DNA from: Kitasatospora setae KM-6054 | Lineage (GTDB): Bacteria; Actinomycetota; Actinomycetes; Streptomycetales; Streptomycetaceae | Reading direction: 5' to 3' | Assembly: GCF_000269985.1 (NCBI RefSeq) | Contig: NC_016109.1 | Location: 4,464,001 to 4,528,000 of the forward strand | Length of the DNA: 64,000 bases | In this document: in pieces, positions 33,314-52,450 of the stretch | How positions within the stretch are numbered: position 1 is the first letter of the stretch | How the letters are laid out: each line of letters begins with the position of its first letter | Notes under the pieces: generated by a model | What the model saw: only the letters and a program-made list of their open reading frames with translations | What the model was told of the DNA's origin: nothing | Databases searched by the model: none | Program-made: the position numbers and the translations under genes

Positions 33314-33559
33314 ATGCGACTGAGCACGGTGATCCTCCCCATCCACCGGTGGAGCGAGGGGCGGCAGGTGTGGCGGCGGGCCGAGGAGCTGGGGTTCCAC
33401 GCGGCCTACACGTACGACCACCTGAGTTGGCGGAGTTTCCGGGAGGAGCCGTGGTTCGGGTCGGTGCCGACCCTGACGGCGGCGGCCGGGGCGACGGAGC
33501 GGATCCGGTTGGGGACGCTGGTGACGTCAGTCAATCCTTTTTCATGCATCACATGCTGA
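33314..33559 (+). pseudogene. LLM oxidoreductase, N-terminal half of the split host gene
   Basis: From ATG 33314, 71 codons encode the start of an LLM-class F420/FMN-dependent oxidoreductase (RLSTVILPIHRWSEGRQVWR, then AYTYDHLSWRSFREEPWFGS). At the TC of codon 72 (33527-33528) the sequence changes to element DNA; the frame then runs ten codons (SVNPFSCITC) to a TGA. The right half begins with the same TC in the same frame at 51776. Together they give 295 residues, exactly the length of the intact copy at 33654. The fragment alone cannot form the TIM barrel. Confidence 0.9.
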
Positions 33560-33565
33560 CCTGCG
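33515..33565 (+). other. attL of the integrative element (scar C)
   Basis: The host sequence GACGCTGGTGACG is followed by the TC shared with the right junction (33527-33528), then the element arm AGTCAATCCTTTTTCATGC. The arm is related to those after scars A and B. Joined with the right arm it gives an imperfect inverted repeat around the TC, as expected for a serine-integrase attP. Confidence 0.75.
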
Positions 33566-33653
33566 GAAACGGCCCGAATTCGGCCGATGAAGGCCCGCAC
33601 GGAAGCCGCCGGAGCGCGCTCGGACGGTGAACGGCCCGCTCCGGCGGTGACTC

Positions 33654-34541
33654 TCAGCCGAGCTGGGCCAGGCCCTCGGTGGCGATCCGTTCGAAGACGC
33701 CGAGGTCGTTCTCGAAGATCGAGTCTGGTACCGGCCAGTGGACGACCAACTCGGTGATGCCCAACTCCTGGTAGCGGCCGGCCCAGTCGACGAAGGCGTC
33801 CAGCGACTGGAGCGGCTTCTCCGCGGTCGAACCCTGGAGCAGTACCTTCTCCAGCGTCGCCACGTCCCGCCCGGTCGCCTCACAGGCGGCCGTCAACTTC
33901 CCGATCTGCTGGGCGATCACCGCCGGCGCCTGCTCGACCGGCACGTCCGCGGGCCCCTTCGGGTCGCCGTACGTCACCCAGCCCTGCCCGTGCTCGGCGA
34001 CGAGCCTCAGCCCGCGCGGCCCGGTCGCCGCCACGTAGAACGGCACTCGTGGCACCTGCACGCAGCCGGGGATGTTCCGCGCCTCCACCGCCGAGTAGTA
34101 CGTGCCCTCCCGCGTGGTGGCGTCCTCCCGCAGCAACTCGTCCAGCAGCGGCACGAACTCCGCGAACCGGTCCGCCCGCTCCTTCGGCGACCACGCTTCC
34201 TGTCCCATCGCCGTCGCGTCGAACCCCGTCCCCCCGGCCCCGATCCCCAGGGTGACGCGACCGCCGGACACGTCGTCCAGAGTGATCAACTCCTTTGCGA
34301 GCGTCACGGGGTGGCGAAAGTTTGGCGAAGTTACCAGGGTTCCCAACCGGAGCCGCTCGGTGGCCGCCGCTGCCGCCGTCAGCGTCGGGACCGATCCGAA
34401 CCAGGGCTCCTCGCGGAAGCTCCGCCACGACAGGTGGTCGTAGGTGTAGGCCGCGTGGAAGCCGAGTTCCTCGGCTCGTCGCCAGATCTTCTGCCCCTCG
34501 CTCCACCGGTGGATGGGGAGGATCACGGTGCTCAGACGCAT
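33654..34541 (-). CDS. Element-borne intact LLM oxidoreductase (replacement copy)
   Basis: A complete 295-residue LLM-family (luciferase-like, F420- or FMN-dependent) oxidoreductase. LITLDDVSGGRVTLGIGAGG is the conserved barrel segment; VPFYVAATGPRGLRLVAEHG and WVTYGDPKGP follow. By hand count it is about 88% identical to the host gene split at 33527/51776. Over the integration site both encode GTLVTSPNFRHPVTLA, but 11 of these 16 codons differ at the third base, many to A/T-ending forms rare here (GTA, ACT, CCA, TTT, GCA). The copy reads opposite to the host gene, 126 bases inside the left end. It probably restores the function lost on integration while lacking a usable integration site. Confidence 0.9.
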   Translation of the reverse strand: MRLSTVILPIHRWSEGQKIWRRAEELGFHAAYTYDHLSWRSFREEPWFGSVPTLTAAAAATERLRLGTLVTSPNFRHPVTLAKELITLDDVSGGRVTLGIGAGGTGFDATAMGQEAWSPKERADRFAEFVPLLDELLREDATTREGTYYSAVEARNIPGCVQVPRVPFYVAATGPRGLRLVAEHGQGWVTYGDPKGPADVPVEQAPAVIAQQIGKLTAACEATGRDVATLEKVLLQGSTAEKPLQSLDAFVDWAGRYQELGITELVVHWPVPDSIFENDLGVFERIATEGLAQLG

Positions 34542-34586
34542 GCCGTCGAGCCTAGCCGGACGTACTGGCCGTGCGCCGGATGCGCC

Positions 34587-35531
34587 TCACACAGCGGCGT
34601 GAGAGCGTCGCCCACTGGCCATCGCGGATTGCAGGGCGGCCCTGACCCGCGCGGCACCAGCAGTCGCCACATCCGATCCTTTTCCGACCGCGCTAGTTCG
34701 AGCTGTGAGGCCCGCGCATGGGCGGCAGATACCCGGGCGGGGCACTGGGTCGTGGCACTTGGCGCACTCGGCGTACCGGGCGGCTGCGGGTCGTACAGCG
34801 GCCTGGACGGGCGGCATCTTGCGGGTCAGGCGGTCGCGGAGCACCCCCGCCGGTGAGTGCATCGGGACGGGCAGGCCCGGCAGCAGGGCATGGGCGAGGT
34901 CGGCATGGGTCGCGCCGCGTTCCAGCCACTGGGCGACCAGGGGCGCGAGTTCCTCGGCTTCGGCCTGACCGAGGCGCAGGCGGGGTTCGGGGCGGATCGC
35001 CCGGAAGAGCACCGCGACCGCCTCGCGGAGTTGTTCATCCGGTACCGCAGTGGGCTCCTCGCTGTCCTGCTGGCAGCTCTCCTCCCGCCCTCCCGCCTTC
35101 GCCTGCGGCGCAGCGTCGGAAACGGCCTCCGGCTCGGCGGGGTGGGAGGTTTCTTGGTACCGGTCCTTTGGAAGGGCGTCAGCACCGCCGGTGGTCGCTC
35201 CACCGGAGACCGGACGGGTGGCACCCGGCAGCGGCGGGAGCTGCGGGGTGTCGTAGACGTGGATCTCGCTGACGATTCTGCCGTCGGGCATCCGGATCTT
35301 CTCGACCCGGTAGAAGCCGGCGTCGGTCAGCTCCTTCAGGGCCTTGCGGATCGCGCCGCGCCCCTGCGGGCTGGTGTCGGCCATGTGCCGACCGTCCTCG
35401 CGCCAGCCGTCGGGGCGGGAGAGAAGGTCCGCAAGCAGGCCGCGGGCGGTGTAGGACAGGTACCGGTACTGCAGCATCGCGTTGGGCAGCACGGTGTAAT
35501 GGCGCGCGTGGGCGCTACGATGAACACGCAT
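34587..35531 (-). CDS. Winged-helix replication/regulatory protein of the element
   Basis: A 314-residue protein. The N-terminus (HYTVLPNAMLQYRYLSYTAR, then GLLADLLSRPDGW and ALKELTDAGFYRVEKIRMPD) is the winged-helix domain of phage and plasmid replication organisers of the DnaD/RepA-like type. A disordered Pro/Glu-rich centre follows, then a helical part (LAPLVAQWLERGATHADLAH) and a Cys-rich tail (CAKCHDPVPRPGICRPCAG) that is a likely zinc knuckle. It lies downstream of the replacement gene on the same strand and may drive replication during transfer, with the DnaB-like helicase at 47556. Confidence 0.65.
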   Translation of the reverse strand: MRVHRSAHARHYTVLPNAMLQYRYLSYTARGLLADLLSRPDGWREDGRHMADTSPQGRGAIRKALKELTDAGFYRVEKIRMPDGRIVSEIHVYDTPQLPPLPGATRPVSGGATTGGADALPKDRYQETSHPAEPEAVSDAAPQAKAGGREESCQQDSEEPTAVPDEQLREAVAVLFRAIRPEPRLRLGQAEAEELAPLVAQWLERGATHADLAHALLPGLPVPMHSPAGVLRDRLTRKMPPVQAAVRPAAARYAECAKCHDPVPRPGICRPCAGLTARTSAVGKGSDVATAGAARVRAALQSAMASGRRSHAAV

Positions 35532-35786
35532 CGGGAGTTGATCGCTCCTGTTGCCGGACCCCGGGGTGTTAGCGCACCGCCGGGGTCACCTATTTTCGGT
35601 GGACCACGGAACGTACCACAACGACCAGGCACACAAGGCACGTTGATGCTAGCGGCCTTGATCACATTCACCATCTGCCGCTGGCCAGCCATGTGTGCTG
35701 GTCGGTGTGGGTACCGCAGTTCCTGGGCGGCCAGACGGCCTTGTCCCGAAGCTGACGTGCCCCCTTCCGTTGCCTGGCTGGGCAGG
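35532..35786. other. Intergenic region with the promoter side of the winged-helix gene
   Basis: These 255 bases are less GC-rich near 35590-35690 (CTATTTTCGG and TGATCACATTCACC), consistent with a promoter for the leftward winged-helix gene. No ORF with family likeness was seen. Confidence 0.4.
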
Positions 35787-36380
35787 TCAGGCGGCGCTCA
35801 GGACCGAACTCTTCACGAACCGGCGGCTCAGGAAGGTGTACCGGGCTCCGGCCGTTATGGGGCGGACGCCGTGCATGAAGTCGCGGGTGGCGGGGAAGGC
35901 GACGAGCGCTCCCTTGGCGGGACGGAGGTCGAGCGGCGGCTGCTCGAAGTAGAGGGCGCCGCCGTCGTACTCGTCGGGGCCGCTGAGGAAGAGCACGGTG
36001 GTGAGGTCACCGCCGATGACGGGCTGGCCGTTGGTGGCGGCCCGTTCGAGTTCGACGGCGGTCACCTCGTCGTGGTGGGTGACGAATCCGGCGCCGACCC
36101 CGTAGCGGTAGATCAGGGTCGGCTGGCCGGGGACGGGGTAGCTCTCGACGCCGAAGAAGGTGTCGATGTGCGGCGTGACGGCGGCCGTGACGAGAGCGGC
36201 GAGGTGTTCCGGCACCTCGACGTACTCGCACTTGCGGAGCGCCTCGTCGACGACGCCCTGGTAACTCCGGGGGCGCTGGGTGCTGTGCTCGAAGTGCCGG
36301 AGCAGTTCCTCGCACAGGACGGCGGGCAGGGCGTTGTCGACGGTGAGCGGGCCGAGCGTGTTCCAGGGTGCTGAGGTCAT
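35787..36380 (-). CDS. 2OG-Fe(II) oxygenase
   Basis: A 197-residue oxygenase of the prolyl-4-hydroxylase-like/PF13640 type. The iron triad is His102 and Asp104 (in FVTHHDEVT) with His170 (in RDFMHGVRPI), and Arg180 (GARYTFLSRR) should bind 2-oxoglutarate. TTVLFLSGPDEYDGGALYFE is the conserved strand pair. Its ATG overlaps the CysRS stop by four bases (ATGA), so both products are made together. The substrate is unknown; within this operon it may hydroxylate an amino acid or peptide. Confidence 0.85.
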   Translation of the reverse strand: MTSAPWNTLGPLTVDNALPAVLCEELLRHFEHSTQRPRSYQGVVDEALRKCEYVEVPEHLAALVTAAVTPHIDTFFGVESYPVPGQPTLIYRYGVGAGFVTHHDEVTAVELERAATNGQPVIGGDLTTVLFLSGPDEYDGGALYFEQPPLDLRPAKGALVAFPATRDFMHGVRPITAGARYTFLSRRFVKSSVLSAA

Positions 36381-37762
36381 ACGGATGTCACCTCTTCTGT
36401 GAACCACCATCGGGTCGTGTCGGGGGTGTCCTCGATGACGATCCCCCGCTGGTGCAGGGTCTTGCGGATCTCGTCGGCTTCCTCGAACCTGCGGGCCTGC
36501 CGCAGTTCGCGCCGGCGGGCGAGCAGGGCCTCGATCTCGGCGTCGTCCGTGGTGCGGTCGTCGAGGTCGAAGGCGTCGAAGAGCTCGTCGAGTTCGCGGA
36601 GCAGCGCCAGGGCGGCAGTGCCGGGAGGCTCCTCGCGCCGGTTCTGCTCGCGGATGTAGTCGAAGAGGACGGCGAGCGCGCCGGGGGTGTCGAGGTCGTC
36701 GTCCAGGCGCTCGAAGATCGCCTCCCGGGCGTTGCGTGCCAGGGCTGCGCTCGCCGGGCTGTCCTCGTGGTTGCGGTCGATCAGGCGGGCGAAGTTCTCC
36801 ACCCGCCGGCGGGCGGCCCGGGCCTGTTCGAGGGTGGTGTCGTTCAGCTCCATGGAGGAGCGGTAGTGCTGGCTGAGGAAGGCGTAGCGCAGGGTGCGGA
36901 AGTCCGCGGTCTTGAGGATGTCGCGGATGGTCAGGAAGTTGCCGGTGCTCTTGGACATCTTCGCGCCGTCGACGCGGAGCAGACCGGTGTGCATCCAGTA
37001 GCGGGCGAGCGGGTCGAGGCCGGAGGCGGCCTCCATCTGGGCGATCTCGGCTTCGTGGTGCGGGAAGATCAGGTCGACGGCACCGCCGTGCAGGTCGTAC
37101 TGGGGGCCGAAGAGGGCTTCGGTGATGGCGGTGTCCTCGATGTGCCAGCCGGGCCGGCCTTCGCCGAGGGCGGTGGCCCAGTAGGGCTCGCCGGGCTTGC
37201 GGGCCTTCCAGAGAGCGAAGTCGCCGGGGTTGCGCTTCTGGTCGTTCTCGTCCACCCGGGCGAGTGAGTCCTCGGCCTTGACCTCGGTGCGGCCGGAGAG
37301 CTTGCCGTAGCCAGGGAAGGTGGTCAGGTCGTAGTACCAGCCGTCGTCGAGCCGGTAAGCGTGGCCGCGCTCGATGAGCTGCTGGACCTGGGCGACGATC
37401 TCGTCGATGTGGTCGTGGGCGCGGCCGAAGACGTCGACGTTGGTGTTGTGCAGGGCGGCCATGTCGTCGAGGTAGTGCTTCTCGTACTCGGTGGCGAGGT
37501 CGCGGGGGTCCATGCCCAGCTCGTTGGCGCGACGGATGATCTTGTCGTCGACGTCGGTGAGGTTCTGGGCGTAGGTGACCTGGTAGCCGCGCTTCTTCAG
37601 GTAGCGGGCGACGAGGTCGAACTGGGTGTAGGTCTTCGCGTGGCCGACGTGGCTCAGCCCGTAGACGGTCGGGCCGCAGACGAACATCCTGACCACGCCG
37701 GGCGTCATGGTGACGAATTCCTCTTTGCGCTTGGTCAGCGTGTTGTGCAGCCTGATGGCCAT
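36377..37762 (-). CDS. cysS: Cysteinyl-tRNA synthetase homologue (accessory copy)
   Basis: A 461-residue class I synthetase with all CysRS parts: FVCGPTVYGLSHVGHAKTY with the HIGH-type HVGH, TDVDDKIIRRANELG, FPHHEAEIAQMEAASG, the KMSKS loop (GAKMSKSTGNFLTI), and the C-terminal domain ending RFEEADEIRKTLHQRGIVIE. A notable difference is WHIEDTAI where E. coli CysRS has WHIECSAM: the zinc-ligand Cys209 position is Asp. As cargo it may be an inhibitor-resistant CysRS, or supply Cys-tRNA (or activated cysteine) to a biosynthetic step with the neighbouring oxygenase and ATP-grasp enzyme. Confidence 0.88.
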   Translation of the reverse strand: MAIRLHNTLTKRKEEFVTMTPGVVRMFVCGPTVYGLSHVGHAKTYTQFDLVARYLKKRGYQVTYAQNLTDVDDKIIRRANELGMDPRDLATEYEKHYLDDMAALHNTNVDVFGRAHDHIDEIVAQVQQLIERGHAYRLDDGWYYDLTTFPGYGKLSGRTEVKAEDSLARVDENDQKRNPGDFALWKARKPGEPYWATALGEGRPGWHIEDTAITEALFGPQYDLHGGAVDLIFPHHEAEIAQMEAASGLDPLARYWMHTGLLRVDGAKMSKSTGNFLTIRDILKTADFRTLRYAFLSQHYRSSMELNDTTLEQARAARRRVENFARLIDRNHEDSPASAALARNAREAIFERLDDDLDTPGALAVLFDYIREQNRREEPPGTAALALLRELDELFDAFDLDDRTTDDAEIEALLARRRELRQARRFEEADEIRKTLHQRGIVIEDTPDTTRWWFTEEVTSV

Positions 37763-37800
37763 CTCTCGGACCTCTCCCCGGTCGGTGATCTGTCGTGCGC

Positions 37801-37860
37801 CGAAACCGACCCAACAGCCTTTCCGATAAACCGATTTGGTTGACCGTCAGGCCGGTTTCG
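37801..37860. promoter_or_regulatory. Inverted-repeat cluster upstream of the CysRS gene
   Basis: CGAAACCG (37801-37808) and CGGTTTCG (37853-37860) form a perfect 8-bp inverted repeat, with AAACCGATTTGGTT between them. The stretch is A/T-richer than the coding DNA on both sides and lies 39 bases before the CysRS ATG. A promoter with an operator, perhaps for the XRE regulator at 40489, is likely. Confidence 0.4.
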
Positions 37861-37889
37861 ACAGGGCCTTGAAGCCTATCGCGCGGCTG

Positions 37890-38792
37890 CTACCAGGCCG
37901 CTCCGTCCGGATCCGCGCACCGCGACCCCCGCAGCTGCAGCCTGCGCTGGTAGTGGCTGCGGAGCTGCTGGGCCTCGGGCCCGCCGATGACGAAGCCGTC
38001 GACGCTCGCGCAGAACTTCTCCAGCGCCTCGACCCGGCGTTCCAGGTCGCTCTGGCTGGCGGGGTAGCAGCGGATCGCCTCGTGGAGGATCTCGGACTGG
38101 TCCGCAGTGATGAAGTCGCGGCTGACGAGCTGGGAGAGCTTCCACTTCCTGTTCGGGATGAACTGACCGGCGGCGGCGTAGATGCAGTCGATCACCTCGT
38201 CCACCGCGAGGTTGAGCAGGTAGTGGCCGGCCTCGGGGCCGAGCCGACGGGCCTGGCGCAGGGACATCTCCCGCACGTCCCAGGTGATCCGGTTGGCCAG
38301 CCGCTCGCGCTCCAGGTCGAGCTGGGTGCGGGCGGCGTGGGCCTTGTGGTGGATGAGCTGCTGGAACGAGCCGCTGCGGTCGTGGAGGACCTGGGCCTTG
38401 TGCAGGTAGGTGTCACACTTCTCGCCGGGCCAGTTGGTCCTGGGGTCGCACTCGTACTGGTAGATGAGCTGGTGGACGTTGACTTCCATCGAGCCCCAGG
38501 GGACGGGGACGTGGAAGAGGAACCTCGGCACCCAGTCGGGGATCCGGTCGGCGATCACCTCGCAGGTGTCGGCGAGGTGGGGGCGCCACTCGGCGGCCTG
38601 CAGCGGGATGTCGAGGACGACGGCGACATCGAAGTCGGACTCCTCGTCGAAGCAGGTCGGGTTGGACGGGCAGTCGGCGCTGGAGGACAGGATGTAGAGG
38701 GCCTGGACCTCGGGCTTGGCGATCCACTCGGTCAGCAGTGGCGTCATCGCCTCGCGCGCGAGTTCGAGGGCGCTGTTCGGTGTGCGGCGCAT
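37890..38792 (-). CDS. Nucleotidyltransferase-fold protein
   Basis: A 300-residue protein with an N-terminal polymerase-beta-type nucleotidyltransferase domain: LYILSSSADCPSNPTCFDEE followed by SDFDVAVVLDIP matches the GS-x-DxD pattern with an insertion of about ten residues between the Ser motif and the Asp pair. The C-terminal half is helical (RLANRITWDVREMSLRQARR, then GHYLLNLAVDEVIDCIYAAA). It may transfer a nucleotide to a small molecule or protein. ATG 38792 follows GGAGGTCGTGAAC and starts 2 bases after the ATP-grasp stop, so the two genes are coupled. Confidence 0.75.
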   Translation of the reverse strand: MRRTPNSALELAREAMTPLLTEWIAKPEVQALYILSSSADCPSNPTCFDEESDFDVAVVLDIPLQAAEWRPHLADTCEVIADRIPDWVPRFLFHVPVPWGSMEVNVHQLIYQYECDPRTNWPGEKCDTYLHKAQVLHDRSGSFQQLIHHKAHAARTQLDLERERLANRITWDVREMSLRQARRLGPEAGHYLLNLAVDEVIDCIYAAAGQFIPNRKWKLSQLVSRDFITADQSEILHEAIRCYPASQSDLERRVEALEKFCASVDGFVIGGPEAQQLRSHYQRRLQLRGSRCADPDGAAW

Positions 38793-38794
38793 GT

Positions 38795-39934
38795 TCACGA
38801 CCTCCTGTGGTCGGTGATCAAGGACCTTCCGAGGGTGCCGGCCAGGCCGCCGTGGGTGCGCTGGAGGTTCATCAGGCTCGGGCTGCTGTTGCCCTCGACG
38901 ATGAGCGCTTGGGCGTCGTTGTCCACGGCGATGTCCCAGCCGATGACGGGCGTGCGGGGGAAGTGGACGGCGGCCCGCTCGGCTGCCTCGATGACCTGGC
39001 GGATGGTGCTGATCTTCTGGTCGGCGAAGGCCAGGCCCGAGATGGGGTGGTGGCTGTAGCGGGTGAGGGCGGTGGTGTGCGCGGTGTCGTCGACCCTGCC
39101 GGTGGTGGCGTCGACCCGCACGTACAGGCCGCCGTTGCAGGCGTTGTCGACGGCGTCCGTGGTCGTGCTGCTCTTGAACAGGCAGTGCAGGACCTGGGGG
39201 CCGTCCAGCGGGTGGAGGCGGGTGATGACCCGGAAGGTGTTTAGCGAGTAGGGGTTGAACGCGGCCAGCTCGTCGTGCTGATGGACGAACGCCTCGATCA
39301 GCCAGCCTCCCCACTTCGCGCCGTACCTGGCCAATGAGAACGGCGTGCCGTCCTGCTGGAGCAGTTCACCGCCCTCGTTGTCGAGGACGAGGACGCCGGC
39401 GCCGCCGCTGGTGTGCCTGGCCGGTTTGATCACCACCTCGGCGATGCCACCAAGGGCAGTGTCCAGTGCGGCGGGGGAGTCGGCCGGCACCGGTCGCCCA
39501 GCCCGGTCGAACCAGGATCCCTGCTCGCCGGTCATCAGGAGTAGCGGCTGGGGGACGCCCGCGTCGCCGAGGATGCGCTTGCACGCGATCTTGTCGTCCA
39601 GGAGGAGGGCGGAGCGGTTCACCGCGGGCAGCAGGCGGCTGTAGAAGACGGTGTCGGGCACGTACGCCGCTGCCGAGGTGAGGTCCACTCCGGTCCGGTA
39701 GAGCTCGTACCGGAAGTAGTGGAACGGCAGACAGCGCCACTGGGCGGTCAGGGCAGCCAACTCGAACCCGATCTGGGATATCGGCTTGCGATCGGCTGTC
39801 TGCCGGTACATCGGCAGGTAGGTCTTCACGGTGTTCTCGACTTGGTGGGCGACCCACAGCGGGGCCGTCACCTTCGGGCCGATCCAGGCCCGGAAGAACT
39901 CGTCGAGCATGTTGGCGCGGAGGTTGAACCTCAA
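38795..39934 (-). CDS. ATP-grasp ligase (sugar-transfer-associated type)
   Basis: A 379-residue ATP-grasp enzyme resembling the sugar-transfer-associated ATP-grasp family. LLDDKIACKRILGDAGVPQP begins the ATP-binding part, VVIKPARHTSGGAGVLVLD is the lysine/glycine loop, and IGWDIAVDNDAQALIVEGNS carries the metal-binding Asp/Glu/Asn. Such enzymes join a carboxylate to an amine or thiol through an acyl-phosphate. TTG 39934 follows GGAAGGAACGATGAA; an internal ATG at 39910 is an alternative. It is the second gene of the leftward cargo operon. Confidence 0.8.
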   Translation of the reverse strand: MRFNLRANMLDEFFRAWIGPKVTAPLWVAHQVENTVKTYLPMYRQTADRKPISQIGFELAALTAQWRCLPFHYFRYELYRTGVDLTSAAAYVPDTVFYSRLLPAVNRSALLLDDKIACKRILGDAGVPQPLLLMTGEQGSWFDRAGRPVPADSPAALDTALGGIAEVVIKPARHTSGGAGVLVLDNEGGELLQQDGTPFSLARYGAKWGGWLIEAFVHQHDELAAFNPYSLNTFRVITRLHPLDGPQVLHCLFKSSTTTDAVDNACNGGLYVRVDATTGRVDDTAHTTALTRYSHHPISGLAFADQKISTIRQVIEAAERAAVHFPRTPVIGWDIAVDNDAQALIVEGNSSPSLMNLQRTHGGLAGTLGRSLITDHRRS

Positions 39935-39982
39935 TTCATCGTTCCTTCCGCTCGTGCGAGGTCGGATGGTGCTGGGCGCGCT

Positions 39983-40189
39983 CTAGGCGGCCGGTTCGTG
40001 GTCGGGGAGGGAACGCGCGGGCGGTGTCGCAGCCCCGTGCCCCGCACTGGGCTGGTGCTGAATCGCGATCCCGAGCAGCGTGAGCACGACGATGTGCCCC
40101 AGCCCCCACAGAGCGGTGAGTGTGGTTCCCACGGGGTCGCGGCGCTCGCCACGATGGCGACCCCGTTGCTGGTTCACGGCTGCGTCCAT
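39983..40189 (-). CDS. Small membrane protein heading the cargo operon (68 aa)
   Basis: ATG 40189 follows GAGGGCACCAGTC. A basic N-terminus (NQQRGRHRGERRDPVG) precedes one membrane helix (TLTALWGLGHIVVLTLLGIA), then a short polar tail ending DHEPAA. It ends 48 bases before the ATP-grasp gene. It may anchor an enzyme complex at the membrane or act as a small exported product; no family recognised. Two large hairpins lie upstream. Confidence 0.55.
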   Translation of the reverse strand: MDAAVNQQRGRHRGERRDPVGTTLTALWGLGHIVVLTLLGIAIQHQPSAGHGAATPPARSLPDHEPAA

Positions 40190-40223
40190 GACTGGTGCCC
40201 TCGGCTCCCCTCGGTGGCTTGAA

Positions 40224-40266
40224 GGCGGTCCCGCCCAGGCGGGGGTTTTCACTGGGCGGGACCGCC
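40224..40266. promoter_or_regulatory. Perfect 14-bp hairpin with nested terminator-like stem
   Basis: GGCGGTCCCGCCCA (40224-40237) and TGGGCGGGACCGCC (40253-40266) pair perfectly. On the plus strand the left arm can instead pair with the adjacent GGCGGG to give a short stem followed by GGTTTT, a terminator-like form. The two folds exclude each other, an attenuator-like layout between the divergent cargo and XRE genes. Confidence 0.5.
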
Positions 40267-40274
40267 GGCTGGTG

Positions 40275-40331
40275 GCCGCTCCGAAGGCCCCAGGAGCCGG
40301 AGGTTCCGGCTTCACTTTCCTTCGGAGCGGC
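40275..40331. promoter_or_regulatory. Second perfect hairpin (13 bp) between divergent operons
   Basis: GCCGCTCCGAAGG (40275-40287) and CCTTCGGAGCGGC (40319-40331) enclose a 31-base loop that itself contains CCGGAGGTTCCGG. It lies 8 bases from the first hairpin. The region 40190-40488 has no gene besides these structures and must hold the promoters of both the leftward cargo operon and the rightward XRE gene. Confidence 0.5.
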
Positions 40332-40488
40332 GGGCATCTCGCGGATCGAGACCCGAGGAGCCGTGCAGGAACTAGGCTTCCCTCATCGCGTGCGATGCCG
40401 TAGCGATGAAACTACGGGCAGTGATGCAGAGGTTCGACGGACTGCCGGTACGAGTTACCCGGACGATCGAGGCCAGGGGGCGCACGGA

Positions 40489-41661: not shown

Positions 41662-41683
41662 TCCAACGCACCGAAGGACGGCG

Positions 41684-42259
41684 ATGACGGACGACAAGCA
41701 GTCGCAGGGCACCGCGAGCTTCCTGCTGGAGATGGGGATGCTCAAGCGGGCCAAGCGGTCCGGCTGGTGGATCGCCGGCGTCAAGGACCCGGAGACCATC
41801 GCCGAGCACAGCTTCCGCACCGCGGTCGTCGGTGCCGTGCTGGCGATGATGGAAGGCGCCGACCCGGCGAAGGTCGCGCTGCTCTGCACCTTCCACGACA
41901 CGCAGGAGACCCGGATCGGCGACATCCCGCACATCGGTCGGCGCTATCTCACCGCCTCCTCCAACGAGAAGGTGACGGCCGATCAGGTAAGCGCGGCGCA
42001 CCCGTCCGTCCTCGCCGGCGTCCAGGCGATCGTCGAGGAGTACGAGAACGCCGAGAGCCTCGAAGTCACCGTGGCCCACGACGCCGACAAGCTCGAATGC
42101 CTGATCCAGGCCGTGGAGTACCGCGAACAGGGCTACCAGAACGTCCAGCCCTGGATCGACAGCAGCCTCGGCAGCCTCAAGACCGACTCCGCCCGTACCC
42201 TGGCCGAGGCCGCGCTCAACATGACCTCGCTGGAGTGGCAGAAGGTCTATCTCGGCTGA
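41684..42259 (+). CDS. HD-domain hydrolase (YfbR-like)
   Basis: A 191-residue HD-superfamily phosphohydrolase. His in PETIAEHSFRTAVVGAVLA, the His-Asp pair in CTFHDTQETRIGDIPHIGR, and the distal Asp in VAHDADKLECLIQAVEYREQ give the HD_3 pattern. YfbR relatives remove phosphate from deoxynucleoside monophosphates, but the substrate here is uncertain. ATG 41684 lies 22 bases after the XRE stop with GAAGGACGGCG before it. A hairpin follows the stop. Confidence 0.85.
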   Translation: MTDDKQSQGTASFLLEMGMLKRAKRSGWWIAGVKDPETIAEHSFRTAVVGAVLAMMEGADPAKVALLCTFHDTQETRIGDIPHIGRRYLTASSNEKVTADQVSAAHPSVLAGVQAIVEEYENAESLEVTVAHDADKLECLIQAVEYREQGYQNVQPWIDSSLGSLKTDSARTLAEAALNMTSLEWQKVYLG

Positions 42260-42267
42260 CCAGGCGC

Positions 42268-43498: not shown

Positions 43499-43577
43499 GG
43501 TGGTGAATCTCCTGGAGAGAGGCGGGTGCTGATGGCGTGACGGGGGTGGGGGGGTGCTCCGGGCTCCTAGGCCGGGT

Positions 43578-45365: not shown

Positions 45366-46069
45366 CGGCGAACGGCCTTCGCCAGACGCATCGCCACAAC
45401 GTCGACCTGCGCGACGGCCCGGCGCGCCTCGACCAACAGCGTCGTGGCCTTGTCCAGGGTGGCCTGCGCAGGGCCGTGCTCGATGCCGAGCTGGGCGTTG
45501 AGCTGGAAGGCGATCTGGTTGGCGTTCACGCCGACCCGGGCGACCTGGAACCGCACCGCATCCAGCGCCTGCACAGCCTCGTCCAACTGCTCGTCCCGGG
45601 ACACCATGCCGGCGCCGCCCGGGGTCAGCGCCTGGCGCTCCAGGTAGTCGGCCACGTTCAGGCCGGTCTCCCGCGCGAGCCGCTTGATCTGCGCTGCGCG
45701 CTCCGCGGTGCAGCGGAAGCCGAGCTTCTTCGTCTTCGGGTTCGCGTTGTCACGGCGGCGGCGCTTGGGACCGCGGACGCTCGCGCCCTCAGCACGGTCG
45801 GCAGGGCGAGCGGGCACGGTCGGCTCGACGGCGGGCGTCTCTTCCTGCTTCGCCGCGCCCTCGCGGTGAAGCCCCGGTGCTGCCGCCCTCGGCAGCACCG
45901 GCCCGTCCACGCCCCCCTGGGCGGGGGCGCCCGCGTGCGTGGCCCCGTAGGGGCCCCGCACGCACTCGCTTGCTCCGCTGTCGACCTGCCGGTAGTCAAC
46001 TCCATTGCGGCCCAGTGAGGTTACAGCACTGGTCGGGTGCTCGGGCGGGGTCTGTCGGATGGCGGTCAC
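45362..46069 (-). CDS. MobC-like relaxosome protein
   Basis: A protein of up to 235 residues. The conserved C-terminal part (KKLGFRCTAERAAQIKRLAR, then ETGLNVADYLERQAL and VGVNANQIAFQLNA) matches bacterial MobC mobilization proteins, which bind near oriT and help the relaxase. GTG 46069 follows CCCGGAGCACCCAC. The first 85 residues have no known domain and cover a cluster of hairpins (45874-45963), so a later start is possible. It is the gene before the relaxase. Confidence 0.75.
   Translation of the reverse strand: MTAIRQTPPEHPTSAVTSLGRNGVDYRQVDSGASECVRGPYGATHAGAPAQGGVDGPVLPRAAAPGLHREGAAKQEETPAVEPTVPARPADRAEGASVRGPKRRRRDNANPKTKKLGFRCTAERAAQIKRLARETGLNVADYLERQALTPGGAGMVSRDEQLDEAVQALDAVRFQVARVGVNANQIAFQLNAQLGIEHGPAQATLDKATTLLVEARRAVAQVDVVAMRLAKAVRR
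45874..45963. other. Cluster of three hairpins, oriT candidate
   Basis: Three inverted repeats lie within 90 bases: CCGGTGCTGCC/GGCAGCACCGG (45874-45901, perfect), GCCCCC/GGGGGC (45911-45928), and a 14-bp stem with one mismatch (45933-45946 and 45950-45963). Such clusters just upstream of relaxase genes often mark the origin of transfer. No nick-site consensus was recognised. Confidence 0.4.
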
Positions 46070-46159
46070 GTGGGTGCTCCGGGAGTGGGCTGATGGTGGA
46101 GGGGGGATGGAGGCAGGGCCTGCGGGTGGGGGTCGGGTTGACGGCCGATGGGGCTCGGG

Positions 46160-47293
46160 TCAGCGGTGGTCCCGGCGGTCGGCGGCGTGCTTCTCGGCGC
46201 GCAGGATGGTCATGACGTCGGTGAGGCGGTCGCCGGAGATCGTCACGCCCTGGGAGCGGACGGCCTTGCGGACACTGGCGCGGCTGAGCCGTCCGGTCCG
46301 CTGCCACGCCTGGCGGCCGATGTCGGCGAGCACTTCCTCGGACGCACCCGGCGGACGGCCGACTGGCCTGCCCGTCCGATCCGGCGGGAGAGTTCCGGAC
46401 AGGTCGTCCCCGACGGTCCGACCGTCGACGCCGTCCGGAGTCCCGGTATGCTCCTCGCCCACCGGGCCGGGCACCGATGCCATCTCCGGACCGATGGCAG
46501 CATCGCCCGTCCGCTCGTCGGCGGGAATTCCGGACAGGCCCTGACCTGCGACTTCGCAGCCAGTGAGCTCGACGGGACGCGCGGGCTCCTCGACGGTCCG
46601 GTCCCCGGACCGGTGGCCTGCGGGAGTTGCGGACGGGCCACCGGTCCCGGCTTCAGCCAACCGGACGCTGCCGAGGGTTGCCGCGGACCGGTGCCCGAAC
46701 TCGTGGCCGTGCTCCGCAGCCACCCCGTGGTCCGGGGCGGCTGACGGGTCACCGGTGTGACCGCCGGGAGTTCCGGACACCCTGGCCGTCGCGGTCCGGG
46801 TCGGGGCTGCGTCGGCGTCCGGAACGGGGTAGTGGTCCGGACGGGGACCGTGGCGGGTGATGAGGATGAAGAGGTGGACCGCGCCACCGAGGGCGAGCGG
46901 GGCGAGGGTGGACAGCAGTCCGACCACGCTGTCGCCCAGCCGCAGCCCGCCCCCGTCGTCGGGCAGGTGGTTGAGGCGAACGGCGTGGAGGGCGTTGGCC
47001 CAGACGCTGGCGGCGGTGGCACTGGCGAACAGCAGCCAGGTGTAGGCGCGGGCCGGCCACGGGGCGGCGCGCAGGACGAGCAGGGCGCGCACCCCGTACG
47101 CGATGAACCCGTCGAGGGCCATCGGGAAGACGTAGGTCAGCGGCCCGCGGACGTGGATCGCGGCGGCCATCTGCTGCAGCGCGTCGTAGGACAGGACGAA
47201 GCCCGCGGCACCGAGGAGGGCGACCGCGACGCGGTCCCAGGCGCTGACACGCCGCTCGGTCCGAGTGGTGCGGCGGGGTGGGGTGTTGGGCAT
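46160..47293 (-). CDS. DUF2637 membrane protein of the element
   Basis: A 377-residue protein. The first 170 residues are a DUF2637 membrane domain with about four helices (VALLGAAGFVLSYDALQQMA, VFPMALDGFIAYGVRALLVL, YTWLLFASATAASVWANALH, LAPLALGGAVHLFILITRH). The C-terminal part is a low-complexity linker with many SGT/GGHT-type repeats and ends in a helix-turn-helix-like segment (GRLSRASVRKAVRSQGVTIS). DUF2637 proteins are found in Streptomyces plasmids and integrative elements as spread/transfer-linked proteins. ATG 47293 has GGAG 14 bases upstream. Confidence 0.75.
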   Translation of the reverse strand: MPNTPPRRTTRTERRVSAWDRVAVALLGAAGFVLSYDALQQMAAAIHVRGPLTYVFPMALDGFIAYGVRALLVLRAAPWPARAYTWLLFASATAASVWANALHAVRLNHLPDDGGGLRLGDSVVGLLSTLAPLALGGAVHLFILITRHGPRPDHYPVPDADAAPTRTATARVSGTPGGHTGDPSAAPDHGVAAEHGHEFGHRSAATLGSVRLAEAGTGGPSATPAGHRSGDRTVEEPARPVELTGCEVAGQGLSGIPADERTGDAAIGPEMASVPGPVGEEHTGTPDGVDGRTVGDDLSGTLPPDRTGRPVGRPPGASEEVLADIGRQAWQRTGRLSRASVRKAVRSQGVTISGDRLTDVMTILRAEKHAADRRDHR

Positions 47294-47354
47294 GAGAGGG
47301 CTGGTGCTCCGAGATCGTCGGGAGTGGTGGCAGGCCCAGGCCGCAGGGCGCGCA

Positions 47355-47384
47355 CGCGTTCCCCCTCTTAAGGAGGGGAACGCG
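47355..47384. terminator. Hairpin between helicase and DUF2637 genes
   Basis: CGCGTTCCCC (47355-47364) and GGGGAACGCG (47375-47384) pair perfectly; the centre CTCTTAAGGA continues partly paired. It lies 172 bases after the helicase stop on the minus strand and ahead of the DUF2637 gene. The 262-base gap 47294-47555 holds no gene. Confidence 0.6.
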
Positions 47385-47555
47385 CGTGCAGCGGGGGCCG
47401 CGTGAACGGCATGCAGAAGCGCGTGGGTCTGTGACCTGCGGTTTCACCGTGCTGCGTGCGCGGTGAGCGGGATGCGTGGCGGCCGGCGTGGCCGGTGGCG
47501 CGTGATCGGCGACGTGGACCGCGCCGACGAGACAGTCGTCGGCGCGGTGGGCCGG

Positions 47556-49118
47556 TCAGGAGACGGCGGCGATGTGGCGGACGGTGGAGCGGTAGCGGGT
47601 CTGCTGGCCGCCACCGCTCCCGCCGGTGGCGCCGTCCTGCCGGGTGGCCCGGCCCGTCTTGACCAGGGTTTCCAGGCGCCTGCGGGCCTTCTCGATGTCG
47701 GAGCGGTCGGGATCCGCCTCTCCGGTCAGGCGGCAGGCCAGCTCACGGGCGGTCATGCCCTGCGGGGCGGCGGTGAGGATGGCGGCCGGGTCGAGGGTTG
47801 CCTCGACGGTGGAGGTGCCCCGGGTGTGGTCGTGGACCACCGACAGCGGACCGACGTCGCCGGTGACGGTCTTGAGCTGGTGCAGCTTCACGATCGGATC
47901 CCCGGCCGCGCCCGCGAGGAACAGCACGCTGCCCGCTCCGGCGGTGAACCACGCCGACCCGTACACCCGGTCCAGGACCGGCCGCTCGCCGCGCTTCGCG
48001 TCCCCGCCGGACTTGCGCTGGTGGTGCAGCTCCAGCAGCTGGGTGCCGGAGCGCAGGAGCCGCTGGCGGGCGTTGTTGTAGGCGAGGCCGGCCTCGTCGT
48101 CGGTGAGCTTGCCGACGACGTCCTTGAGGCTGTCGATGACCACGGTGTCCGCGCGGTGGGCCTCGGCCATCTCGGCGAGCAGGTTCGGCTCCCGGTCCAG
48201 CGACGCGGGGAGCGGGCCGGTCCAGAACACCAGCCGCTCCGCGAGGTGGCGATGGTCGGCGGGCATGACACGGCGGGCGAAGGCGCGGGCGATCTGCGGC
48301 GGGCGGTCCATCGCCAGGTACAGGACGCGCTCGCCCTCGGCGACCGGCATGTCGAGCACGGCCGACAGCAGGCCGAGGCGGGCCAGGACGACCTGGTGGG
48401 CGATCGTGGTCTTTCCCACCCCGGGCGGGCCGACCAGCATCAGGGACTCGCCGTCCGCCCAGGCGGTCTGCTCGCGGCTGCCCCAAATCGGGGCGACCTG
48501 GTCGCCGAGGTCCTGGACGAAGGACCAGCCGTCCACCGCGAACCTGGTCAGCCGCTGCCCGCGTACGCCGAAGCCACGGTCGGCGGACGAGGTCAGCTCC
48601 GCGTCGAGCGCGGCCCGGATCCGCTCCGGGTCGGCGCCCTCGGCACCGGACTGCTGCAGCAGCCGAACGGCGGTGGCCTGCCAGCGCCGCAGCTCGGCCT
48701 TCTCCCGCACGATCTGCGCGTGGTAGTCCGCGCCCGAGACCGGGACGGAGGCGGTGAACAGGCGGTGCAGGTAGGTGGGGCCGCCGACGCGGCTGAGGTT
48801 GCCGCCCTTGGCGAGCTGGGCTCCCACCGCGGTCGGGTCGGTCGGGGCGCCCTCGTCGCGCAGCGCGAGCAGTGCGCGCCAGATGTCGCTGTGGGCGGGT
48901 CGGTAGAAGTCGCCCGGCTCCAGGATCGGGCGGATCACGTCGATCGCCTCCGCCTGGAACATGCCGGTGCCCAGCACCATCGCCTCGGCGTCCAGGTCGT
49001 GCGGCGGCACCGGCAATCCGCCCAGCCCGCCCAGAGCCGGAGCCGGAGCCGGAGCGGCGGGATCGTCGTCCTGGAAGGGGGGTGCGGTCCGGGGGTTGGG
49101 AAACGTACGCTGGGACAC
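47556..49118 (-). CDS. DnaB/RepA-like replicative helicase
   Basis: A 520-residue protein. An N-terminal DnaB-type domain (PPHDLDAEAMVLGTGMFQAE, then FYRPAHSDIWRALLALRDEG) is followed by a RecA/AAA_25 ATPase with Walker A LVGPPGVGKTTIAHQVV, ERVLYLAMDRPPQIARA and Walker B ADTVVIDSLKDVV. A winged-helix end (RSDIEKARRRLETLVKTGRA) closes it. The N-terminus looks like chromosomal DnaB, while the ATPase resembles plasmid RepA helicases. GTG 49118 follows GCAAGGAGCTCC. It probably supports replication of the excised element. Confidence 0.8.
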   Translation of the reverse strand: MSQRTFPNPRTAPPFQDDDPAAPAPAPALGGLGGLPVPPHDLDAEAMVLGTGMFQAEAIDVIRPILEPGDFYRPAHSDIWRALLALRDEGAPTDPTAVGAQLAKGGNLSRVGGPTYLHRLFTASVPVSGADYHAQIVREKAELRRWQATAVRLLQQSGAEGADPERIRAALDAELTSSADRGFGVRGQRLTRFAVDGWSFVQDLGDQVAPIWGSREQTAWADGESLMLVGPPGVGKTTIAHQVVLARLGLLSAVLDMPVAEGERVLYLAMDRPPQIARAFARRVMPADHRHLAERLVFWTGPLPASLDREPNLLAEMAEAHRADTVVIDSLKDVVGKLTDDEAGLAYNNARQRLLRSGTQLLELHHQRKSGGDAKRGERPVLDRVYGSAWFTAGAGSVLFLAGAAGDPIVKLHQLKTVTGDVGPLSVVHDHTRGTSTVEATLDPAAILTAAPQGMTARELACRLTGEADPDRSDIEKARRRLETLVKTGRATRQDGATGGSGGGQQTRYRSTVRHIAAVS

Positions 49119-49180
49119 GGAGCTCCTTGCGCGGTGCCCTGCGGCTGGCAGGCCGAAGGCACCCGTGTTGATCGTTATTT

Positions 49181-49230
49181 GTGGGCGGTCGTCAGGGAGT
49201 CGTCTCGGCCCTTGGTGCTCCAACACCAGG
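49181..49230. repeat. Duplicated leader segment, copy 1
   Basis: GTGGGCGGTCGTCAGGGAGT begins this copy, which ends in GGTGCTCCAACACCAGG; both blocks recur at 49614-49666. On the minus strand it lies 63-112 bases before the helicase GTG. The other copy lies before the small gene at 49289-49546. Confidence 0.75.
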
Positions 49231-49288
49231 GGCCGACCCCTTTTCCCCGGGAAATCCGCGCCGTGCGCGGGGCCCGGGGTGGGCGCGG

Positions 49289-49546
49289 TCAGGCCGCGCG
49301 AGCCACGGCACCGGCCGAGGCGCTCCCCATCAGGTCGGCTAGGCGGGCCGCGCTGCGGGGGCTGATCGTCGTCCGGAAGCCGGAGCAGACGCGCTCCAGG
49401 GCGCGTGCGCGATCGTCGGCCGGCTGTCCCGAGAGTGAACGGTCACTGACCGCACTGGCCTGGACGGCGCCGGGTCGGCGCAGGAAGATCACGTTCCCGT
49501 CGGCGCCGGGAGAGTGCATGGGGTCGGGGTGTGCGGGCAGGGTCAA
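49289..49546 (-). CDS. Small unknown protein upstream of the helicase (85 aa)
   Basis: TTG 49546 directly follows GAGGAGGCTCAG, a near-perfect Shine-Dalgarno sequence. The product has a polar start (TLPAHPDPMHSPGADGNVIF) and a helical end (FRTTISPRSAARLADLMGSA). It lies 170 bases upstream of the helicase gene and may be cotranscribed with it. Function unknown; small DNA-binding or regulatory proteins occupy this place in other actinobacterial elements. Confidence 0.55.
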   Translation of the reverse strand: MTLPAHPDPMHSPGADGNVIFLRRPGAVQASAVSDRSLSGQPADDRARALERVCSGFRTTISPRSAARLADLMGSASAGAVARAA

Positions 49547-49643
49547 CTGAGCCTCCTCGCGGCCGGGTACGGGGCTGGCAGGCCCCTCGGGGTGCACCCG
49601 GGTCGCGCGGGTTGTGGGCGGTCGTCAGGGAGTCGGCGGCCAT
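49443..49643 (-). CDS. Doubtful 66-residue Arg/Pro-rich ORF
   Basis: ATG 49643 has GGAGCACC ten bases upstream, the same Shine-Dalgarno variant used before the MobC-like gene. The frame (AADSLTTAHNPRDPGAPRGA and an Arg-rich tail) overlaps the better-supported gene 49289-49546 in another frame. The words SLTTAH also appear, followed by a stop, in the leader copy at 49181-49230, so the repeat may encode a leader peptide. Confidence 0.25.
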   Translation of the reverse strand: MAADSLTTAHNPRDPGAPRGACQPRTRPRGGSVDPARTPRPHALSRRRRERDLPAPTRRRPGQCGQ

Positions 49644-49666
49644 GGGCCTGGTGCTCCAACACCAGG
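49614..49666. repeat. Duplicated leader segment, copy 2
   Basis: Matches 49181-49230 in GTGGGCGGTCGTCAGGGAGT and in GGTGCTCCAACACCAGG, with a 3-base length difference between the blocks. CTGGTG and CACCAG form a short inverted repeat. GGCTGGCAGGCC also precedes both copies. Confidence 0.75.
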
Positions 49667-50122
49667 CCCGGACCAGGGCTGCGGGCCGGACGCTGGCAGG
49701 CGTATCGGCACGCTCCTCGGCGGCTACGTCATGTCAGAAGCTCCTCGTTTCAGGGCAGGCTGGGGCATCCGGCGACGGCACGAAGGCCGTCGCCGCACAC
49801 AAGTGACCACGGGATGGCCGGTTTGGTCCGGCCGGAAGACGGTGATAGACGGCGCGACCGCGCCGGGCAGGAGGTCGCAGGGACAAGGGAGATCGCAGGC
49901 GAAGAACCTGGGGATGCGATTACTCAAGCAGCCGCGATATCTCCCGAGCAAGGACTTCGCTGAAATCCACCGGGCAAGGAGTCCGGCGAGATCGTTGCCG
50001 GATTTCCCACAGCACCTCCGACCTGGGACGAAGCTCCTCTGCGACGCTCCTGATCGCGGCGTTGGATCTCCTCCTCGAAATGCGACTCACGCCTTTCCTC
50101 CTCCCGGAGCTATCCGGGCCCG

Positions 50123-50186
50123 CACCGGGTCCGCAACACCACGATCGCCCCCGCGCGGCCCGACGTATCGGGCCGATCATGTGGTA
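50123..50186. repeat. 64-bp imperfect repeat, copy 1
   Basis: CACCGGG, CCACGATCG and a palindromic core (GGCCCGACGTATCGGGCC) followed by GATCATGTGGTA. The same order occurs 98 bases further on. Spaced repeats of this kind are typical of replication or recombinase/excisionase binding regions. Confidence 0.55.
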
Positions 50187-50220
50187 AGGCCACGGCACCC
50201 TCTTCGGACGGCGGACCCTC

Positions 50221-50284
50221 CACCGGGCCCCCGAGACCACGATCGACCACTCTCGGCCGGATGCGTTCGGCCGATCTTGTGCTA
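50221..50284. repeat. 64-bp imperfect repeat, copy 2
   Basis: CACCGGG, CCACGATCG, then the palindromic core CGGCCGGATGCGTTCGGCCG and ATCTTGTGCTA, in register with 50123-50186. It ends 30 bases from the recombinase stop codon. Confidence 0.55.
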
Positions 50285-50313
50285 GCGGGCTGGCCGCTTC
50301 TTGGGGATGTCGG

Positions 50314-51747
50314 TCAGAGCTGGTTCTGCTCGATGCCGATCCGGTCCCAGTCGAAGAGGCCAGGGGTCTTCGTAGAGGCGTCGATGATCACCCCGGAGAA
50401 CAGGAACCGCAGCACCGCGTTCCGCCTATCGTCGGTCATCTCCTCCGCGAACCAGGCATCTCGCGCGCCGGGTCCGGTCAGCCCTTCGAGGAGCTTCATC
50501 GGCCGCACTGCCACCCGCCGCTGAGCCTTGGCGATGCGTGCTTGGATCTCCTTCCTCATCTTCCGGTACTCGGCCGTGCTGATCTCCTTGGCCGTCCACA
50601 TCTCGTTCAGCTCGGCGAGCTGCTGCTGGTCCGCCTCGACCGCCTCGGCGGCGCTGTCCGTGAGCGAGGTGGTGGCCAACTGCCCCGAGACCGTGAGCTT
50701 GCCGAGGAGGTCGATCGCTGCGTCCCGGACGAAGTCCTCCAGCTTGATGGCCGCGATCCGTCGGACGCACTTCTTGTCGTCGTTGCGCGTCCTTCGGACG
50801 CAGAGGTACGAGGGGGAGCCGCCGACCTTGGTGCCGGACATCAGGGTGCCGCACCGGCCGCACATCACCAGGCCGCGCAGCAGGTAGAACCTCCGCAGCT
50901 GCAGGTTGGTCTGGTGGATCTGTGATCGGAACTCGCGCCGGGCGCGTGTCTCCTCCCAGGTGCCGGCGTCGATGATGGCGGGCCAGTTGCCGGGCCCGAG
51001 TTCCTCGCCCTGGTGCATGCGGATTCCGGCGACGTGCCGGGAGTCGAGCAGCGCGCGGACGGTGCCCTGAGTCCACGCCTTCCCGTACACCGTCTTGATG
51101 CCGCGCTTGTGCAGCGTGAGGGCGATGGCATAGGGGTTCTCGCCCTTGAGGTAGCGGTCGAAGATCTCGCGGACGATCTCCGCCTCCTCCTCGATGATCT
51201 TCATGCCGCCCACCTCGTAGCCGAACCGACGCTTGCCCGAGTGGGGCAGGCCCGCATCCGCCCGGTCCTGGAGCGCTGACTTGAGCCGCCGCGAGGTGTC
51301 GTCCGACGACCGACAGGCGTGGGCCACCTCAATGCGCAGGATGAACCGGTCATCGGGGTCCGAGAGGTTCCGCCGGTTCGCCTCCCCGTGCAGGAGGATC
51401 TGGTGCTCGTCGGAGACCGTGAGCAACTCTTCGAGGTCCCTCGGCTGCCGCATCAGGCGGTCGGGGTGGTAAGCGATGATGTGGCGGAACTCCCGGCCGC
51501 TCGCGGCCCCGAGTAGCTCGTCCCAGCCAGGACGCTTCCGGTTGCGGCGCCACGCGGACCGGCTGTTGTCGACGTAGACATGGCGGGGGTCGATCACCAG
51601 GCCCCGGCGCTCGGCGATTTCCCGGCAGATCCGCTCCTGGCGGTCCACGCCGGTCTGATCCTCGTCGTCCGCCTGGGAGATCCGGCAGTAGATCGCTGCC
51701 GCCTCGCCCGGGATGATCTCCGGCTCCCGCTTCCCGTTACGTCGCAT
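50314..51747 (-). CDS. int: Large serine recombinase (integrase)
   Basis: A 477-residue integrase. The N-terminal catalytic domain starts AAIYCRISQADDEDQTGVDR with the nucleophile Ser in CRISQ, and continues to the conserved AYHPDRLMRQPRDLEELL. The recombinase domain (RRFGYEVGGMKIIEEEAEIV, then ALTLHKRGIKTVYGKAW) and a zinc ribbon (GLVMCGRCGTLMSGTKVGGS, then YLCVRR and KKCVRRIA) follow, with a coiled coil near residues 370-420 (QQLAELNEMWTAKEISTAEY). ATG 51747 lies 29 bases from the attR crossover, the usual place for a serine integrase gene. It is expected to join attP and attB across the TC dinucleotide. Confidence 0.93.
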   Translation of the reverse strand: MRRNGKREPEIIPGEAAAIYCRISQADDEDQTGVDRQERICREIAERRGLVIDPRHVYVDNSRSAWRRNRKRPGWDELLGAASGREFRHIIAYHPDRLMRQPRDLEELLTVSDEHQILLHGEANRRNLSDPDDRFILRIEVAHACRSSDDTSRRLKSALQDRADAGLPHSGKRRFGYEVGGMKIIEEEAEIVREIFDRYLKGENPYAIALTLHKRGIKTVYGKAWTQGTVRALLDSRHVAGIRMHQGEELGPGNWPAIIDAGTWEETRARREFRSQIHQTNLQLRRFYLLRGLVMCGRCGTLMSGTKVGGSPSYLCVRRTRNDDKKCVRRIAAIKLEDFVRDAAIDLLGKLTVSGQLATTSLTDSAAEAVEADQQQLAELNEMWTAKEISTAEYRKMRKEIQARIAKAQRRVAVRPMKLLEGLTGPGARDAWFAEEMTDDRRNAVLRFLFSGVIIDASTKTPGLFDWDRIGIEQNQL

Positions 51748-51800
51748 GGACCGATTGTATGAAGGCGGAATGGCCTCGCCGAACTTCCGGCATCCGGTGA
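51748..51800 (+). other. attR of the integrative element
   Basis: The element arm GAAGGCGGAATGGCC precedes the shared TC (51776-51777), then the host gene resumes with GCCGAACTTCCGGC. The arm and the reverse complement of the left element arm (GAAAAAGGATTGACT) agree at about 9 of 15 positions, an imperfect dyad around TC as in serine-integrase attP sites. Confidence 0.75.
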
Positions 51801-52450
51801 CGCTGGCGAAGGAGCTGATCACGCTGGACGACGTGTCCGGGGGGCGGCTGACGCTGGGGATCGGGGCGGGCGGGACGGGGTTCGACGCGACGGCGATAGG
51901 GCAGGAGGCGTGGTCGCCGAAGGAGCGGGCGGACCGGTTCGGGGAGTTCGTGGGGCTGCTGGACGAGTTGCTGACGCACGACGCGGTGACCCGGGAGGGC
52001 ACGTACTACTCGGCGGTGGAGGCGCGGAACATCCCGGGCTGCGTGCAGACGCCCCGGGTGCCGTTCTACGTGGCGGCGACCGGGCCGCGCGGGCTGCGGC
52101 TGGCGGCGGAGCACGGGCAGGGCTGGGTGACGTACGGTGACCCGCGCGGGCCGGCGGACGTGCCGGTGGAGCAGGCGCCCGGGGTGGTCGCGAGGCAGCT
52201 GGAGAAGCTGGCGGCGGCCTGCGCGGCGGCCGGCCGGGACGTCGGCGAGCTGGAGAAGGTGCTGCTGCAGGGGTCGACGGCGGAGCAGCCGCTGCGGTCG
52301 GTGGGCGCGTTCGTGGACTGGGCGGGCACCTACCGGGAGCTGGGCGTCACCGAGCTGGTGATCCACTGGCCGGTCCCGGACTCGATCTTCGCCAACGACC
52401 TCGCGGTCTTCGAGGAGATCGCCACCGAGGGCCTCGCCCAGCTCGGCTGA
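51776..52450 (+). pseudogene. LLM oxidoreductase, C-terminal part of the split host gene
   Basis: From the TC of codon 72 the frame runs in phase with 33314-33526 and encodes 224 residues: SPNFRHPVTLAKELITLDDV, GIGAGGTGFDATAIGQEAWS, VPFYVAATGPRGLRLAAEHG and the end FEEIATEGLAQLG. Without the first 71 residues the barrel is incomplete. An in-frame ATG in the element arm (MASPNFRHPV) could allow translation of a truncated protein, probably without activity. A hairpin terminator follows. Confidence 0.9.

Follow-up and report, generated by a model that had tools for sequence, protein, structure and literature searches.

How can an integrative element occupy the middle of a gene that nearly all relatives of its host retain, and what does a second, complete version of that gene do inside the same element? 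This question is raised by a stretch of 64,000 nucleotides from Kitasatospora setae KM-6054 (NC_016109.1, positions 4,464,001 to 4,528,000; hereafter the window), which has 72% G+C and belongs to a genome of one contig of 8.78 Mb. Positions 33527-51775 of the window are an 18.2-kb integrative element with a large serine integrase, which is inserted with a 2-bp core, TC, at codon 72 of an F420/LLM-type oxidoreductase gene and carries an inverted full-length LLM gene of its own. With a probability of about 0.83, the locus would be explained by an element that inserts into a conserved gene and supplies a full replacement copy in which the integration site has been recoded. The features on which this explanation depends are the following.

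33314-33526, plus strand: N-terminal half (codons 1-71) of the split LLM oxidoreductase gene, stopping at attL.
51776-52450, plus strand: C-terminal half (codons 72-295) of the split LLM gene.
33654-34541, minus strand: carried (inner) LLM gene, complete, 295 aa (Pfam Bac_luciferase PF00296, E 3.8e-44).
34296-34343, minus strand: recoded attB-equivalent, codons 67-82 of the carried copy (position computed from 33654-34541).
33500-33575, plus strand: attL, made of the attB left half, the core TC (33527-33528) and the attP right arm AGTCAATCCTTTTTCATGCATCACATGCTGACC.
51749-51810, plus strand: attR, made of the attP left arm CCGATTGTATGAAGGCGGAATGGCC, the core TC (51776-51777) and the attB right half.
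50314-51747, minus strand: large serine integrase, 477 aa (Pfam Resolvase PF00239, Recombinase PF07508, Zn_ribbon_recom PF13408).

The structure that an earlier note on this DNA had described was borne out. The two halves of the split gene (33314-33526 and 51776-52450) rejoin in frame to 295 residues, with the cut in codon 72, and the complete 295-residue copy lies inverted on the other strand, 126 bp inside the left end of the element. The carried and the split gene differ at 73 codons synonymously and at 36 non-synonymously, corresponding to a DNA identity of 85.4% and to the protein identity of about 88% that had been counted by hand. Across the crossover, 11 of the 16 codons (67-82) had been claimed to be changed, all of them silently; these 11 synonymous and 0 non-synonymous differences are the maximum among all 16-codon windows of the pair, with a binomial P of 2.5e-4 that applies to this one chosen window and is uncorrected for the choice. 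The best subfamily match of the LLM gene was TIGR03619, at 140.3 bits, under its cut-off of 166.9.

At both junctions the core TC falls within codon 72. This dinucleotide is the sole overlap between the two junctions, with no long direct repeat, and the same holds in related elements; together with the three expected integrase domains, this points to recombination of the large serine integrase type. The integrase start codon lies 28 bp from the attR core, and the attP right arm of attL recurs, conserved, in about 75 other scars, a scar being LLM codons 1-72 fused to the attP arm (TCGGTCAAGCCTCGTTCACCCATCACG...), a configuration seen throughout the genus on the upstream side of intact genes. 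Restoration of a target end at attL or attR was considered and rejected, since the element DNA completes the gene at neither junction: the left half meets a stop shortly past attL (open reading frame 33314-33559), and attR is without the N-terminal part.

The carried copy proved to be a constant of the element family. A search with the integrase, which covered whole genomes at the level of the genus and the family and in two other genera, gave 11 relatives at 80-83% identity; with the window element this makes 12 elements in three genera. All 12 are inserted in the same LLM gene and have a complete LLM copy inside, inverted in every case, as the earlier note had proposed to check. The C-terminal half lies 20-30 bp from the integrase start in 12/12 elements, and the distance from the copy to the nearest N-terminal half ranges from about 0.1 kb or less up to about 14 kb. 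The integrase and the LLM copy are common to the elements, and a relaxase or helicase-like gene is usually present; the other cargo differs. One further locus (G012) has matching anatomy without a related integrase, and it was counted with the 12 integrase-bearing elements to give 13 carried copies. A matching LLM gene, nearly always of full length, is present in 70/70, 35/35 and 58/61 genomes of three genera. The carried copies have no internal stop codons, and their dN/dS values are 0.10-0.21 in five comparisons, indicating that purifying selection acts on them. Most of them also have a TAGGCT/TAAGCT-like hexamer shortly upstream of the start, and the carried copy is presumably expressed.

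The recoding is concentrated around the crossover. Here the native genes mostly read GTG/GTC ACS TCG CCG/CCC AAC, and the carried copies in most cases GTA/GTT/GTC ACG TCN CCA/CCT AAC/AAT. The recoding to A/T affects the third bases of codons 70, 73, 74 and 78, most consistently that of codon 73. The third position of codon 73 is A/T in 12/13 carried copies, in 0/13 of their own split targets and in 0/57 standalone genes of the same genus. Among 284 codons tested for A/T in the carried copies, codon 73 was the most enriched (p 1.2e-12) and codons 70, 74 and 78 ranked third to fifth, with codon 289 second as the one outlier; these tests count related copies as independent, and the P values are thus too small. 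Relative to the core, codons 70 and 73 have their third bases at symmetric positions. The peak of synonymous divergence that the earlier note had predicted over the crossover was also found: in the pooled comparison of carried copies with their own targets, synonymous differences amounted to 54/91 (59%) at codons 72-78 and 716/2116 (34%) from codon 86 to the end, whereas random pairs of standalone genes gave 21.5% at codons 72-78 and 22.7% beyond codon 85, with no rise. A/T third positions in the carried copies likewise peak at codons 70-78 (40%, against a median of 9.8%). A shift towards A/T along the whole of the carried genes was rejected as the cause of the recoding, their mean A/T third-position content being 11%, compared with 29% at codons 66-79 and 40% at codons 70-78.

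Recoded codons are rare in sites that have been used. A/T at codon 70 was found in 3/76 used left half-sites versus 9/13 carried copies, and A/T at codon 73 in 0/13 used right half-sites. An out-of-sample set of 55 LLM genes from two other genera, with the known element copies set aside, contained four genes with A/T at codon 73 (G145, G135, G165 and G132), which were assigned from fragment coordinates and short loci. The first three are carried copies of decayed elements, with an opposite-orientation N-fragment on one side and a C-fragment on the other; the fourth, in G132, is oriented like its upstream N-terminal scars with an inverted C-fragment between, and is apparently a restored gene. 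One of the 57 'standalone' genes (G058) actually occupies a carried-copy position, with an opposite-orientation scar and a displaced C-fragment, and its codons 72, 73 and 75 read TCA, CCG and TTT, respectively.

These observations suggest the following course of events. The serine integrase would recognise attB inside the conserved LLM (F420/flavin-type) gene and cut at the TC core in codon 72; integration would destroy the resident gene, and the damage would be made harmless by the complete carried copy with its own start region. Because a complete copy would itself contain attB, the carried copy would have been recoded synonymously around the core, and its site would thereby escape recombination with attP, so that neither autointegration nor insertion of a second element would occur. 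The host thus probably keeps the LLM enzyme while the spare copy escapes the same integrase, and avoidance of autointegration would be the most economical cause of the recoding. Selection for a kept function and a destroyed integrase site, as put forward in the earlier note, is supported by the local synonymous rise and by the 12/12 copies; that the recoding blocks the integrase and makes the carried site 'integration-proof' we infer.

Whether the recoding arose many times is a separate matter. A single recoding in an ancestral element copy may have been kept while gene conversion exchanged the remainder of the gene for host-like sequence, a tentative alternative that we regard as somewhat less likely than not. 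It is favoured by the core ACC CTC GTN ACG TCN CCW common to most carried copies; the alleles nevertheless vary (CCA/CCT, GTA/GTT/GTC, AAC/AAT, TCA/TCT/TCG), and a tree built without the attB region scatters the recoded copies over several host-specific clades (Fitch 6 changes). Since retention of the site through conversion would itself need selection, the explanation by a site-recoded replacement copy would hold either way.

The recoding could instead guard against other elements of the same family, by superinfection exclusion or competition for the locus, and not against autointegration. Up to five tandem scars attest to intense repeated targeting, and no intact target other than the carried gene would remain in the cell. 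Sequence does not separate such protection from self-protection; the latter is probably the stronger pressure, because it would act in every circular intermediate, and we regard defence against other elements as the sole cause as somewhat unlikely.

Several points weigh against the explanation by a recoded rescue copy. The CCG at codon 73 in G673 and in the decayed copy of G058 shows that the mark has exceptions, and partly recoded left halves are present in some few scars (G007, G646), meaning that recoded genes can become targets again. The core shared by most carried copies may reflect few recoding events rather than many. The need of the host for the LLM gene is read only from its conservation (70/70, 35/35 and 58/61 genomes), and both the block to the integrase and the expression of the carried copy are predictions from sequence.

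How the locus is refilled can be approached through the scars. About 76 scars were read, up to five of them in tandem, and the scar pattern occurs in 66/395 genomes of the family and in 7/17 genera, with 0 in a reversed-pattern control. The window holds three, including the present attL; the other two, which the earlier note lacked, lie to the left of the element.

32402-32557, plus strand: relic scar of an older insertion, LLM codons 29-72 and the attP arm.
29946-30017, plus strand: relic scar of an older insertion, LLM codons ~58-72 and the attP arm.

Each scar represents one past insertion, yet the gene is nearly always present, and the locus must therefore have been struck repeatedly and always refilled. 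We lean towards inversion between the inverted copies as the route of refilling. Since the copy is inverted, homologous recombination between the two C-terminal halves, that of the copy and the displaced one, cannot result in deletion. Instead, the element would be turned round, the gene rebuilt in the old orientation and an N-terminal scar left behind, and repeated cycles of insertion and inversion would yield the tandem scars of many genomes. Fitting this route, G047 has a scar, about 20 bp, inverted codons 243-142 and then an intact gene, inverted C-fragments stand next to scars in G040 and G132, and G050 and G113 have scars, the gene and an inverted N-fragment right after its stop, as would result from inversion through an older scar. 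Against the inversion step, no attR-arm remnant was found beside restored genes with up to 6 mismatches, the window itself excepted, and the inverted C-fragments of G047 and G040 could instead have been left by a decayed carried copy.

The scars might otherwise stem from elements with a full copy in direct orientation that were deleted by homologous recombination, which would lead to the same end state of N-terminal scars upstream of an intact gene. This is unlikely, because the copy is inverted in 12/12 intact elements, inverted C-fragments adjoin the scars in G047, G040 and G132, and G132 holds the recoded allele in the restored orientation. The odds are about even that the locus represents a natural 'insert-and-rescue' system, in which the copy of the element becomes, through inversion, the only such gene of the host, a core gene is repeatedly replaced by element-borne alleles, and sensitivity at attB is lost and regained in an arms race.

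A reading of the inner gene as ordinary cargo, in which a diverged homologue was gained by chance and its synonymous differences are mere divergence, is very improbable: the copies do differ throughout (73 synonymous codons) and the local excess in the single window pair is modest (P 2.5e-4), but an LLM copy is present in 12/12 elements, whereas the CysS, ATP-grasp and HD cargo is not shared, and the recoding is local, repeated and A/T-directed.

The elements described in reviews either restore one end of the target gene or interrupt genes that are dispensable (PMC5704250, PMC12884075, PMC4383910). The end-rebuilding islands and integrative mobilizable elements, known from tRNA/tmRNA genes (Islander, PMC4383910) and from dusA and trmE (PMC4482086, PMC8409611; review PMC5704250), share with the present element site-specific integration in a conserved gene whose function is preserved by element DNA. 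In those islands, DNA next to att replaces the 3' or 5' end in place, whereas here the two halves of the target remain apart and a full-length inverted copy is provided separately, with its own start region and a recoded att site. The gene-disrupting integrative mobilizable elements with serine integrases (rumA and other internal sites, PMC5704250) resemble it in their integrase, internal coding site and relaxase; they are described in dispensable genes, while the present element brings a replacement. The closest logic is that of engineered Cleave-and-Rescue and home-and-rescue drives (PMC7951863, PMC7968924), in which a gene is disrupted and a recoded copy not recognised by the enzyme is supplied; those are synthetic, nuclease-based and eukaryotic, whereas this element is natural, bacterial and integrase-based, and it is likened to them in logic, not as a drive. 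The open-licence literature that was searched yielded no account of a full-length, inverted, att-recoded replacement, consistent with the novelty that the earlier note had supposed. Such an element would be able to exploit an attachment site that lies well inside a conserved gene, and would be a natural parallel to engineered recoded-rescue elements. It suggests that a recombinase may exert strong selection on synonymous sites; the recoded positions would be in effect a natural mutational map of integrase attB specificity, of engineering use, and the scar arrays a countable fossil record of integrations.

A sister integrase clade (72-77% identity) is found in a class I/II aminotransferase gene (PF00155) in G001, G318, G075 and G139 (loci L070-L071 and L076-L080; G075 on C34, G139 at 4.44 Mb). 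It shares with the LLM elements a related integrase, a conserved metabolic target and arrays of displaced fragments, in places tandem arrays of C-terminal fragments outside attR. G001 has an intact direct-orientation aminotransferase gene at the far end, and the clade seems to use ordinary 3'-end rebuilding. A 72% identical integrase lies in a different LLM-family gene (L074, G097; 29% identical to the present one), by which the integrase clade seems to have switched targets.

The remaining genes of the window element are listed below.

43578-45365, minus strand: relaxase, MobA/VirD2-like (Pfam PF03432), in 9/12 related loci.
45362-46069, minus strand: NikA-like mobilization accessory protein (Pfam PF21983).
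46160-47293, minus strand: DUF2637 protein, common to related elements.
47556-49226, minus strand: DnaB-N domain helicase/primase-like protein, common to related elements.
36377-37762, minus strand: cargo, full cysteinyl-tRNA synthetase homologue (TIGR00435, 438 bits), absent from related elements.
38795-39934, minus strand: cargo, ATP-grasp gene, absent from related elements.
41684-42259, plus strand: cargo, HD-domain gene, absent from related elements.

From its relaxase, NikA-like and DnaB-like genes the element is probably mobilizable; no conjugation-apparatus family was found in that part of the open reading frames of the element that was scanned by Pfam. The CysS homologue, near the ATP-grasp gene, is possibly part of a small biosynthetic or resistance cargo.

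Left of the element, 25561-33252 is debris of older insertions. It includes two proteins without a Pfam match (26848-28044 and 30802-32196), whose relatives occupy almost the same positions at other loci, together with a toxin-antitoxin pair of PIN/CcdA-like type (32606-33252); all of these recur among scars of other genomes. The idea of one downstream neighbour throughout the genus was rejected, as conservation of the neighbours is confined to individual groups of genomes. Upstream of standalone LLM genes (loci L081-L159), the 45 bases that precede the start codon are of several types without relation to one another, which suggests repeated replacement of 5' ends; the upstream type of the carried copy in the window, judged by eye, recurs in G038, G013, G032 and G058.

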